Assembly: GCF_000422085.1 (NCBI RefSeq)
Contig: NC_021741.1
Location: 2,666,001 to 2,730,000 of the forward strand
DNA: 64,000 nt
DNA from: Serratia liquefaciens ATCC 27592
Lineage (GTDB): Bacteria; Pseudomonadota; Gammaproteobacteria; Enterobacterales; Enterobacteriaceae
Reading direction: 5' to 3'
In this document: in pieces, positions 22,223-33,979 of the stretch
Position numbering within the stretch: position 1 is the first letter of the stretch
Layout of the letters: every line of letters starts with the position of its first letter
Translations under genes and position numbers: made by a program
The notes under the pieces: generated by a model
Told to the model about the DNA's origin: nothing
The model's database searches: none
Seen by the model: only the letters and a program-made list of their open reading frames with translations

Positions 22223-23884
22223 TTAAATCAGCGCTTCGATCCGCTGATTCACCGCTTCACGCAGCCGCAGCAGCGGTGCTGCCTGATGCGGATAACGTTT
22301 AAAAGTGATACGCATCCCCAGTTCCTGTTCAATCAATGCCTCTACCGTGTGGCGATCCGTCAGGCTTTCCAACAGCTGCAGCGCACGCATGTCCTGCAAG
22401 CCCTGATGCAGCACCCGTAACCGCAGCGACTCCACCGGCGTCAGGTTTTCGCCGGGGTAAACCACAAAGGCGTCGCCGGAAGGAAACGCATTTCGGCAAT
22501 CGGTCACCGCGTAGGGGTTAAGTTTTTCTCGCGAATGGCCGCTGTTATAGAAGTTGAACCCCCAGTGCAGAAAACCGCTGATGTTGTACAGGTAAAGCTG
22601 GATGCCCAGAATACGATTACGCGCCGAAGGTTGAGCAAAGAAACGGTTGGCCACCTCGGTCTTTTGCACGCAGCAGTAATAGGCCCACAGGCCCGGAACC
22701 TGATGCTCAAGGAAAGCGTCTATATGGTCGGTAGCGGCCACTGGCGTTTCCACCAGTCCTTGCCGGTAAAACGCGTAGTCTGACAGCGCGTCAAAAGTGC
22801 GGAACCCGGCCAGCAGCGGGCGCAAGGCGGCAACGGCACGCTGATAAACGGCGATGTTCTCCAGCGTTGGCTCATCCGAGATATGGAACCAGACCTGCTG
22901 TTGCAACTGGCGATCGCGGAACCATGCGGTCAACGCCGGCAACAGAGCCTGCAAAAACTGTTGATACTCCTGCGCGTGGGCGTCAGTGTGCCAACCGAAC
23001 AGCGGGCAAAGTGCGCCGTCGATCTCCGCCAGAATTTTTGGCGCATGCGCCGCCCCCCACTGGGTGAACAACGGGGCAATCTCAAAATGTTCAATCCCCT
23101 CTTCCTGCGCCATATCCACCCACTGGGCCAGCCGCTGGAAATCAAACCGATAACCCTGCGCGGAACGCTGTACGCCAATCAACTGTACCGTGGTGCGCTC
23201 GCCGCCGACGGCGGTATCCAGCGGTGGCGTGAAGATCGGCGTCAGCAGCATGTTGACTCCGCTGTTAACCGCACAGCGAACAAAGTTGCGTACCGCCAGC
23301 CAGTATTCGGGACTGAACACCGGCACGCGGTAATAATCCGCCAGACAATCGGTATGCACCCATTCGGTGTGCAACAGGGTTTGCGGCGGCAGTTCAACCG
23401 GGACGATATGCAGCGTCAGGGCGGCGCTGGCCAGGGCTTCGCCGCTGATAACATCAAACAAGGTCAGGTTCAGCGGGCAATCCCCGCCTGGCACAGGCGT
23501 CGACGGCGGTGTATAGGTCAGCCAAAGGCAGCCGTAATAATTGTTGGCGACAAAGAAACGCTGCTCGGTCAGCGGCATCAGCGGATCGGGAAATAACCCC
23601 GGCTCGGTACGCAGATAGTTCTCATCGGTCTGGGCATAACAGGGAAAGTGGCTGGGTACCGATTGCACCTGCCGCACGCTGATATACTCCGCCAGTGATC
23701 CCTCAAGACGGTAGCTTAATTCACGCCGAGTTTCGTTATCGGCCCGGTGAAGGCAATAAACCCCCTGCCAGGAAATCATTTCATTGCTCAGGCCACTCAA
23801 CTTATTTATTTGATCAATCTGTGGTGCATTGTGGCTGTGGAATATCTTTTCCAGACTGTGAGTAAAAGTCAATGAAAGGCGCAT
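22223..23884 (-). CDS. DUF4091 (glycoside-hydrolase-like) protein
   Basis: A 553-residue protein with no signal peptide. Its C-terminal part resembles the DUF4091 domain, a module attached to TIM-barrel-like proteins in carbohydrate loci: FRTFDALSDYAFYRQGLVET, LGIQLYLYNISGFLHWGFNFYNSG and FVVYPGENLTPVESLRLRVLHQGLQDMRALQLLE. The middle (about 190-380) reads like a TIM barrel with VWFHISDEPT, where the acidic residues could be catalytic. It is divergent from the sugar ABC transporter operon and is presumably cytoplasmic, acting on an imported oligosaccharide or glycoside. No activity is established for the family as far as I know. The start has only a weak ribosome site. Confidence 0.8.
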   Translation of the reverse strand: MRLSLTFTHSLEKIFHSHNAPQIDQINKLSGLSNEMISWQGVYCLHRADNETRRELSYRLEGSLAEYISVRQVQSVPSHFPCYAQTDENYLRTEPGLFPDPLMPLTEQRFFVANNYYGCLWLTYTPPSTPVPGGDCPLNLTLFDVISGEALASAALTLHIVPVELPPQTLLHTEWVHTDCLADYYRVPVFSPEYWLAVRNFVRCAVNSGVNMLLTPIFTPPLDTAVGGERTTVQLIGVQRSAQGYRFDFQRLAQWVDMAQEEGIEHFEIAPLFTQWGAAHAPKILAEIDGALCPLFGWHTDAHAQEYQQFLQALLPALTAWFRDRQLQQQVWFHISDEPTLENIAVYQRAVAALRPLLAGFRTFDALSDYAFYRQGLVETPVAATDHIDAFLEHQVPGLWAYYCCVQKTEVANRFFAQPSARNRILGIQLYLYNISGFLHWGFNFYNSGHSREKLNPYAVTDCRNAFPSGDAFVVYPGENLTPVESLRLRVLHQGLQDMRALQLLESLTDRHTVEALIEQELGMRITFKRYPHQAAPLLRLREAVNQRIEALI

Positions 23885-24349
23885 AGCAATAATCTCGCTC
23901 TAATGGGGAAATACCGATGAGTCATTTTCAGGCTAGCCCCTTTTATCGATTCAAACAATAGTGGTCATTCAAAAAACGGCGTTTACGTCGAGGCAAAGCC
24001 TGCCGATACAATTTTTTTGTTTATTTGCATCACAAAAATGAAAGATACCCAGACATGCACAATAAAAATGTTTTTAATCCCCATTATGGTGCAAGGGTTA
24101 TCACTTATTCCTATGACCCCAGCAGCCAGTCATTGCCCAACGGCAGGGCCAAAACTGCCGCAGAAGGTTAACGAATTGTGAACAACTTACGCTTTCGGTT
24201 TACGCCCCAACCCTTTCAATCTTAACAACATCGAAACATTCGCGCCCCATTTTTGGGCAGATCGGGGTGTATTGACACATTGAAAGTTAAGGGATAGAAA
24301 GAATTCACGTTACGAAAATATTTATTCGTCGTCCACCGAGGGGAAAGCA
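23885..24349. promoter_or_regulatory. Divergent control region of the sugar locus
   Basis: A 465-base region without a gene. It holds GCTTTCGGTT at 24191-24200, the same decamer that occurs at 30951-30960 before the DeoR-type regulator, and a second CTTTC at 24213-24217, 21 bases (two helix turns) further on. A promoter for the transporter fits TTGACA at 24272-24277 and TAGAAA at 24295-24300 (17-base spacer). The middle is AT-rich. A TGGTG...TATCAC stretch near 24093-24112 is only a poor CRP match. Confidence 0.5.
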
Positions 24350-33115: not shown

Positions 33116-33124
33116 GGAATCTCT

Positions 33125-33979
33125 ATGTACCTGATATCCAACCGGGAAATGCTGCAAAAAGCACAACGCCAGGGTTATGCCGTACCGGCGTTCAACGTCC
33201 ATAATCTGGAAACCGTGCAGGTGGTGGCGGAGACCGCCGCCGAATTGCGCTCGCCGGTGATCATGGCCGGCACGCCCGGCACCTTCAGCTATGCCGGCAC
33301 CGACTATTTGATCGGTATCTGCCAGGCGGCCGCACGCCGTTACGATCTGCCGTTAGCGCTGCATCTGGACCATCACGAAGAGATGGACGATATCGAATAC
33401 AAGGTCAAAAGCGGCATTCGTTCGGTGATGATCGACGGCTCACATCTGCCGTTCGAACAGAACATCGCCAAAGTGGCTGAGGCCGTCGCATTGTGCCACC
33501 GCTACGGTGCCAGCGTTGAGGCAGAGTTGGGCCGCCTCGGGGGCCAGGAGGATGACCTGATTGTCGACTCCACCGACAGCTTCTTCACCGATCCGGCCGC
33601 CGCGCGCGAGTTTGTCACCGCTACCGGCATCGATTCGCTGGCGGTAGCCATCGGATCGGCTCACGGGCTGTACCACGGCGAACCCAAGCTGGACTTCGAC
33701 CGCCTGGCGCTAATCCGCGAGCAGGTCGACATTCCACTGGTACTGCACGGCGCATCCGGTATTCCAGAAGCCATGGTGAAACGCGCCATTTCTCTAGGGG
33801 TGTGCAAGGTCAACGTCGCCACTGAGCTAAAAATCGCTTTTGCCGACGCGGTGAAAAGCTATTTTTCACAACATCCCGATGCCAACGATCCGCGTAAATA
33901 CATCGTGCCCGGCAAGCTGGCGATGAAAGAAGTGGTGGCAGAGAAAATCCGTATCTGCGGCAGCAGCGGCATGCTGTAA
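33125..33979 (+). CDS. kbaY: Class II tagatose-1,6-bisphosphate aldolase (KbaY/GatY-like)
   Basis: A 284-residue zinc aldolase. [38 protein letters not shown] holds the catalytic Asp and zinc His residues; [18 protein letters not shown] and [32 protein letters not shown] give the remaining metal and phosphate sites. Length equals KbaY/GatY (286/284). It cleaves tagatose 1,6-bisphosphate to DHAP and glyceraldehyde 3-phosphate. No tagatose-6-phosphate kinase and no KbaZ/GatZ-type partner lie in the window, so that step would need PfkA or an enzyme elsewhere. Starts 9 bases after agaS with TAAGGAATCTCT. Confidence 0.9.

Follow-up and report, generated by a model that had tools for sequence, protein, structure and literature searches.

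We analyzed a 64,000-nucleotide stretch of the Serratia liquefaciens ATCC 27592 genome (hereafter the window; C1:2666001-2730000 of 5.28 Mb), which contains a ten-gene block joining an ATP-binding cassette (ABC) importer, a glycoside hydrolase (GH), a cysteine-cluster Gfo/Idh/MocA protein (GFOcys), and a sugar kinase to genes of the Aga pathway. The hydrolase gene points leftward and is followed by nine rightward genes, all with intact frames (Table 1). Profile scans applied Pfam and NCBIfam cut-offs, with Pfam covering 18 proteins within 17783-37630. An earlier sequence-only reading had placed and classified these genes, and the frames and profile matches bear it out – its DeoR-type gene being AgaR.

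Table 1. Features of the block, in window coordinates.
Feature	Position	Strand	Evidence
GH123 (Group 4 type) beta-N-acetylgalactosaminidase, 553 aa	22223..23884	-	PF13320 GH123_cat 344.7 bits (cut-off 23.1)
Divergent intergenic region, CTTTC-type imperfect palindrome at 24213-24237	23885..24349	.	footprint alignment, pattern match
ABC importer solute-binding protein (MalE type)	24350..25603	+	PF01547 133.1 bits
ABC permease 1 (MalF/UgpA type)	25686..26624	+	PF00528
ABC permease 2 (MalG/UgpE type)	26637..27455	+	PF00528
ABC ATPase (MalK/UgpC type)	27478..28590	+	NF008653 459.6 bits (cut-off 432)
Cysteine-cluster Gfo/Idh/MocA protein (GFOcys), 427 aa	28610..29893	+	PF01408/PF22725/PF02894
ROK sugar kinase, NagK-like	29897..30820	+	PF00480 213.4 bits
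Intergenic region, perfect palindrome at 30952-30976	30821..31152	.	footprint alignment, pattern match
AgaR, DeoR-family repressor	31153..31923	+	NF040755 378.6 bits (cut-off 260)
AgaS, galactosamine-6-phosphate deaminase/isomerase	31949..33115	+	TIGR02815 539.4 bits (cut-off 529.2)
KbaY/GatY-type tagatose-1,6-bisphosphate aldolase	33125..33979	+	TIGR01858 486 bits (cut-off 443.55)

The GH123 glycosidase

By its sequence, the DUF4091 protein at the left end of the block is a GH123-type beta-N-acetylgalactosaminidase, a type already described, which places a glycosidase within the locus. The sequence-only reading had offered this protein as a glycoside cleaver while stating that the locus held no classical glycosidase. 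PF13320 is the GH123 catalytic domain, so the latter statement falls; the former stands in that the protein is a glycosidase, though one of a described type with solved and assayed relatives. The supposed gap is closed, and the question narrows to one well-defined protein, GFOcys.

The closest solved structures match the GH123 protein over nearly its full length (8k2l, 8.6e-153; 8k2n, 1.3e-120). Both are named monosaccharide-releasing beta-N-acetylgalactosaminidase and, from the excerpted text of PMC11087588, are entries of that paper; we infer that these codes stand for NgaP2 and NgaLy, the two Group 4 enzymes with solved structures. The likeness to Group 4 enzymes (NgaP2, NgaLy, NgaBf, NgaBl) extends to the Asp-Glu pair and to other conserved residues. 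We aligned the window protein with those of 78 of the 79 fetched loci, dropping one for coverage below 80%, and found the catalytic pair D337-E338 in all 79 proteins, together with D100, W121, Y402, G437, W441, and Y476; R488 is present in 78. Paired by order and spacing, without aligning the published sequences, these correspond to the residues given as fully conserved in the same excerpt (D95, W115, Y392, G427, W431, Y466, and R478).

No signal peptide is visible by eye at the N-terminus, so the enzyme is probably cytoplasmic; likewise, the seen portion of PMC11087588 mentions signal peptide removal for no Group 4 enzyme. Unlike the Group 4 enzymes, the Serratia protein comes from Enterobacterales and adjoins Aga genes. 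By analogy with relatives of established activity, it is predicted to release N-acetylgalactosamine (GalNAc) from beta-GalNAc glycosides.

Among the rightward genes, the solute-binding protein begins with what resembles, by eye, a Sec signal peptide. For permease 1, frame counts and a 310-amino acid Pantoea homologue used as a length guide favor the ATG at 25686 over a start at 25545, while GFOcys most likely starts at the ATG at 28610, from which its homologues align. The aldolase falls under the cut-off of the KbaY-specific model NF009375 (403.3 vs 542 bits).

Conservation and putative operators

The whole block is kept in ten named Serratia loci (L002-L010 and L016, the last from a Serratia liquefaciens metagenome-assembled genome with a 97% identical GH123). 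Rouxiella (L011) and Cedecea (L014) keep it as far as their loci reach, into agaS, with KbaZ between agaR and agaS, and one further genome (G024) has the same order plus KbaY. A gene-order survey, as the sequence-only reading had suggested, thus finds the block conserved in Serratia and, within the reach of the loci, in Rouxiella and Cedecea, which argues that the block is not a chance assembly. At the genome level, GH123 occurs in 20 of 30 genus genomes (the window's own included, and one by a 43-residue match only) and in 9 of 295 sampled family genomes (one partial).

Parts of the block recur elsewhere beside aga genes. Two Pantoea loci (L018, L020) carry the ABC-ROK-AgaR-GH123 genes next to a second, Escherichia coli-like AgaR and KbaZ. 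Their Gfo protein differs from GFOcys (26% identity) and is closest, among solved structures, to GH188; AgaS and KbaY were not seen in these two loci, both of which end inside kbaZ. In one of 5426 E. coli genomes (R32_14_1F), a Gfo gene with 65.8% DNA identity lies with a ROK kinase and AgaR, adjoining the aga operon. There, a phosphotransferase system (PTS), a GH4-type 6-phospho-beta-glucosidase, and ChbG replace the ABC importer and GH123, and a DNA search of the E. coli genomes with GH123 gave no match. Another genome (G862) has a 55% identical Gfo some 7 kb from AgaV/W/E-like genes. The conserved order in Serratia, Rouxiella, and Cedecea, together with the aga neighbors in Pantoea and E. 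coli, points to a branch of ABC, GH123, and ROK genes that supplies the Aga pathway.

The two intergenic regions share a palindrome, CTTTCGRTT-N7-AAYCGAAAG, which is perfect before agaR (CTTTCGGTT-N7-AATCGAAAG) and weaker, with four mismatches, before the transporter genes; the divergent region also has a pattern match at 24192. The half-site CTTTCRRTT occurs six times in the 64 kb against 2.21 expected, a number reached in 1 of 100 shuffles, and four of the six copies fall within the two intergenic regions. Allowing up to four mismatches, the palindrome matches the window four times, two of them outside both regions, and four Markov copies gave 1, 1, 0, and 2 matches. Across the 12 tested loci, 11 (all except L145) have at least one site with at most three mismatches. 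Within the region matching 23885..24349, a palindrome with one to three mismatches is present in L002, L011, L014, L015, L017, L018, and L020, and none with three or fewer was found in L007 or L010. In the two Pantoea loci, the spacer is 6. Upstream of a second aga cluster in the Serratia genome, the exact half-site pattern is absent (the single L159 match is at 871) and only a four-mismatch palindrome occurs (L159:13146). The palindromes of the two intergenic regions are probably AgaR operators.

We also noted two irregular loci. In L089 (genome G078, from the same family), a GH123 remnant of 61 residues (77% identity) sits beside AgaR- and AgaS-like frames, which would fit an ancestral locus that has since lost its transporter, Gfo, and ROK genes. 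L017, from a record titled Chryseobacterium sp. 18061, holds an enterobacterial block with identities close to Cedecea and Citrobacter records; mislabelling or contamination may explain the name.

A predicted beta-GalNAc branch of the Aga pathway

The locus has no PTS, deacetylase, or tagatose-6-phosphate kinase, as the sequence-only reading had observed, but the rest of the genome offers a candidate for each (a GalNAc-type PTS, NagA, and PfkA). NagA scores above its cut-off at C1:1179882-1181015 and adjoins a ROK-regulator-like (nagC-like) frame; other neighbors resemble nagB and nagE by eye. The PfkA gene lies at 5.09 Mb, and a second phosphofructokinase-like gene at C1:2341824-2342699 (166 bits against a PfkA cut-off of 371) could be another hexose-phosphate kinase. 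No tagatose-6-phosphate kinase was seen among the E. coli R32_14_1F aga genes inspected either; in the excerpts at hand, PMC11907403 assigns this phosphorylation in E. coli to PfkB and PMC12118421 reports KbaZ as a proposed tagatose-6-phosphate kinase. The second aga cluster (~C1:4198300-4202600) encodes proteins similar to those of E. coli R32_14_1F (AgaV 64%, AgaW 59%, AgaE 62%, AgaF 51%, KbaZ 55%), and a comparison of frames from the surrounding 18 kb turned up no relative of AgaS, KbaY, AgaR, or NagA. In the own-genome search, AgaS scored above its cut-off once, within the block: the genome carries its aga genes at several separate sites, and this locus holds the only full-score AgaS.

We consider it likely that the locus is an AgaR-controlled branch for beta-GalNAc-ended oligosaccharides that feeds the Aga/tagatose pathway, with the Gfo protein perhaps cleaving a second linkage; confidence is high in the branch as such and modest in the Gfo step. 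The gene identities are set by sequence and the order of steps follows, by analogy, the E. coli pathway. The ABC importer would take up a small oligosaccharide, from which cytoplasmic GH123 would remove the terminal beta-GalNAc. The ROK kinase would yield GalNAc-6-phosphate, NagA of the nag operon would convert this to galactosamine-6-phosphate, and AgaS would convert that to tagatose-6-phosphate. A housekeeping phosphofructokinase would then form tagatose bisphosphate, which KbaY, with KbaZ from the second aga cluster, would split. The Gfo/Idh/MocA protein may cleave the same oligosaccharide at a second linkage (for instance alpha-GalNAc) through transient oxidation at C3 by nicotinamide adenine dinucleotide (NAD+). 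The sequence-only reading had the main course right in predicting oligosaccharide import, intracellular cleavage, phosphorylation, and then AgaS and the tagatose path. Its further suggestion of an undescribed pathway was rejected, since every step but that of the Gfo protein has a characterized counterpart. The locus is instead a new arrangement of known parts with one undescribed step, and Serratia gains a predicted route to beta-GalNAc-ended glycans.

Two known pathways frame this proposal. The E. coli Aga/Gam pathway (AgaR, NagA/AgaA, AgaS, KbaYZ) shares with it an AgaR-type repressor, AgaS, KbaY, and NagA as a possible deacetylase. According to the part of PMC3668189 consulted, E. coli nagA substitutes for agaA, and agaS, the proposed galactosamine-6-phosphate deaminase/isomerase, is required; by analogy, Serratia NagA may act on GalNAc-6-phosphate. 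Serratia differs in placing an ABC importer, GH123, Gfo, and ROK kinase ahead of these steps and in scattering the genes over the genome. The Shewanella Aga pathway (AgaP, AgaK, AgaO; agaO is listed as a gene of it in an excerpt of PMC2996990) likewise brings in GalNAc by a kinase rather than a PTS, as far as the excerpt of PMC12118421 goes. Compared by description only, it has a permease and an outer-membrane transporter where Serratia has ABC and GH123. A literature search of a limited collection found no published account of this locus.

Several points weigh against the proposed branch. The ROK kinase, although similar to an N-acetylglucosamine kinase (7p7i, 3.1e-75), scores under the NagK cut-off (283.1 against 380 bits), so we leave it as a candidate GalNAc (N-acetylhexosamine) 6-kinase. 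A PTS-borne GalNAc route seems present in the same genome, which would make the ABC branch an addition and not the only route. Among 60 non-enterobacterial GH loci (L021-L080, read for up to 10 kb on either side), no Gfo, ROK, AgaR, AgaS, or KbaY relative reached 80 bits, and GH123 therefore has other partners outside Enterobacterales. The cleaved linkage, the substrate of the ROK kinase, and the role of the Gfo protein are themselves predictions.

The Gfo/Idh/MocA protein as a candidate glycosidase

The AlphaFold2 model of GFOcys (mean predicted local distance difference test score 92.4) fits NAD+-dependent glycosidases of GH188 best in structure comparison, with plain oxidoreductases nearly tied. 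GH188 sulfoquinovosidases (SqgA), like GH109 enzymes, act by transient NAD+ oxidation at C3, the mechanism proposed here. Their catalytic Lys107, Glu163, and His193 correspond, when aligned via the Pantoea Gfo, to K110, E167, and H199 of GFOcys (by direct count, the aligned Glu would carry number 164 in SqgA). The other residues that we marked are H372, in a GHGGGD loop, and C237, C240, C246, C290, and C294. H372 is invariant in a 48-sequence alignment (48/48), and the homologues have four invariant cysteines and one nearly invariant. By the aligned end points of the structure comparison, outside any residue alignment, H372 falls near the place of the GH188 acid/base residue His321.

GFOcys is not a GH188 member: Tyr136, Glu189, and Arg166 of that family are not kept, and we rejected the assignment. 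It shares 18-22% identity with the solved GH188 chains and is ~60 residues longer, with a cysteine-bearing stretch. The sulfonate-binding Arg166 falls at Val169, in a loop region where placing is approximate. We had paired Y141 with SqgA Tyr136 and dropped this, as the alignment puts Tyr136 at Leu139. With GH109, the NAD+-dependent N-acetylgalactosaminidases, GFOcys shares the Gfo/Idh/MocA fold and the GalNAc setting, and its His-Gly loop, GHGGGD, may be the counterpart of the GGHGG loop that a cited title gives for GH109. It differs in matching 2ixa by sequence only weakly and only in the N-terminal part, and in having Glu167 at the position of GH109 Tyr226, which is Glu in GH188. GH109 structures were not among the best 50 VIA-align entries or the best 50 Foldseek rows, which excludes nothing. 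Weak WD-repeat matches of the C-terminal half to solved structures were taken as chance.

On the structure comparison and residue alignment, we judge NAD-dependent glycoside cleavage by this protein, as the sequence-only reading proposed, plausible, and tentatively model GFOcys as an NAD+-dependent glycosidase for a second linkage. Counting against this, Foldseek separates GH188 (1.3e-24) from NanOx/YjhC (3.3e-24 and 4.4e-24) by a near tie, 5uhw comes within 1 Z unit of GH188, and GH188 Tyr136 and Glu189 are replaced by Leu139 and Gln195. So does a paralogue control in which each of the 11 other Gfo proteins of this genome was added to the fixed alignment and His stood at position 372 in four; K110, E167, H199, and H372 were all present in one of the 11 (L162, alignment doubtful). 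In a joint alignment of seven of the 11, His stood there in none. Because the paralogue result varies with the alignment, we do not lean on the C-terminal His loop.

A rival with a real, though minority, chance is that the Gfo protein works as a plain oxidoreductase, such as a C3/C4 dehydrogenase or an epimerase-like enzyme. It would then convert the released aglycone sugar, or a modified N-acetylhexosamine, into the kinase substrate, with GH123 doing all the cleavage. The NanOx/YjhC near tie speaks for this rival, as do the Gfo-ROK-AgaR triplet alongside a different hydrolysis set in E. coli R32_14_1F and the Gfo-GH4 adjacency in Deinococcus and Thermus, from which it may be that Gfo and ROK work one after the other on a cleaved product. 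The Pantoea replacement Gfo, in contrast, is GH188-related, and Gfo is seemingly the sole sugar enzyme in ABC importer operons of one Streptomyces (cysteine type) and two rhizobial records (Pantoea type), which fits an enzyme acting on an imported glycoside.

Part of the neighborhood survey drew on 25 plasmid records, from which 12 regions were taken (L152 was left out; L149 and L153, whose neighbors lacked usable annotation, were read by our own comparison). In the Streptomyces record, the ABC genes and Gfo adjoin no other sugar enzyme, and GH16 lies further off. Thermus has GH4, a decarboxylase, and an amidohydrolase, and Thermomicrobium a SIS protein, NagA, AnmK, a hexosaminidase, and MurQ. 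In a Subdoligranulum plasmid, a distant GH123 relative (26%) adjoins Gfo, and in Gemmiger sp. An120, GH123 (40%) lies ~2 kb from it. The Gemmiger GH123 gene also adjoins a weakly Pantoea-like Gfo gene (27%; L142 5500-7110 and 4424-5464), near the cysteine-type Gfo, and both Gfo types may therefore share one cluster with GH123. The Pantoea-type Gfo has matches in 242 plasmid records, chiefly of Rhizobium and Sinorhizobium. ABC sugar permeases lie directly downstream in three of the five annotated regions read, one of which also has NagA, ROK, and GH20. In Duffyella, a BadF-type gene and sugar ABC genes lie nearby; in Agrobacterium, the neighbors are a GNAT gene and a ROK regulator. Such mixed neighbors fit a glycoside-acting enzyme better than a GalNAc-only one.

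In Deinococcus psychrotolerans, the Gfo relative lies with endo-alpha-1,4-polygalactosaminidase genes, ABC genes, a BadF kinase, a SIS-domain protein, a class II aldolase, a PfkB-type kinase, and a GH4-type gene; Deinococcus sp. AB2017081 has a similar set and a GH4 gene, without the endo-polygalactosaminidase in the stretch. The D. psychrotolerans set raises an alternative substrate, a fragment of a microbial galactosamine/GalNAc exopolysaccharide rather than a host or insect beta-GalNAc glycan, with GH123 cutting one linkage only. We regard this as rather unlikely. The authors of PMC11087588 do, in the part seen, discuss exopolysaccharides for other GH123 groups, but the 18 scanned proteins around the block include no GH114-type or other polysaccharide-degrading enzyme besides GH123.

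Other distant relatives of GFOcys lie beside alpha-L-fucosidase, beta-galactosidase, alpha-galactosidase, or no telling glycan gene. This tells against a GalNAc-specific role, as the family at large extends beyond amino sugars, and the distant neighborhoods yielded no common substrate. Such variety would also suit an ABC importer and Gfo that serve an unrelated glycoside as mere neighbors of the Aga genes. We hold that very improbable given the conserved block, the palindrome common to both intergenic regions, the ABC-ROK-AgaR-GH123 part kept in Pantoea despite its other Gfo type, and the E. coli genome in which Gfo-ROK-AgaR is separately joined to aga genes.

Returning to the glycosidase reading, a broader version, held more cautiously still, is that GFOcys is the founding member of a distinct and widespread NAD+-dependent glycosidase family, one that has a structural metal site, is often used with ABC importers, and in its Enterobacterales branch cleaves N-acetylgalactosaminides beyond the reach of GH123. 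At least 7998 of 7999 candidates scored are relatives at E <= 0.001, other Gfo subfamilies possibly included, and the best 120 listed are at least 55% identical. Among 34 genomes picked from those with a GH123 relative, 17 have a Gfo relative at E <= 1e-60. Order- and class-wide Gfo counts (at least 4 of 394 and at least 1 of 369 genomes) are lower bounds because at most four first-look candidates were scored per genome. Were the Gfo protein a glycosidase, a large set of relatives named only oxidoreductases would need re-reading, as GH188 did for sulfoquinovose clusters without a classical enzyme.

Downstream of kbaY, a 121-amino acid frame without a Pfam match at E <= 0.001 (34252-34617) has a start that looks, by eye, like a signal peptide.

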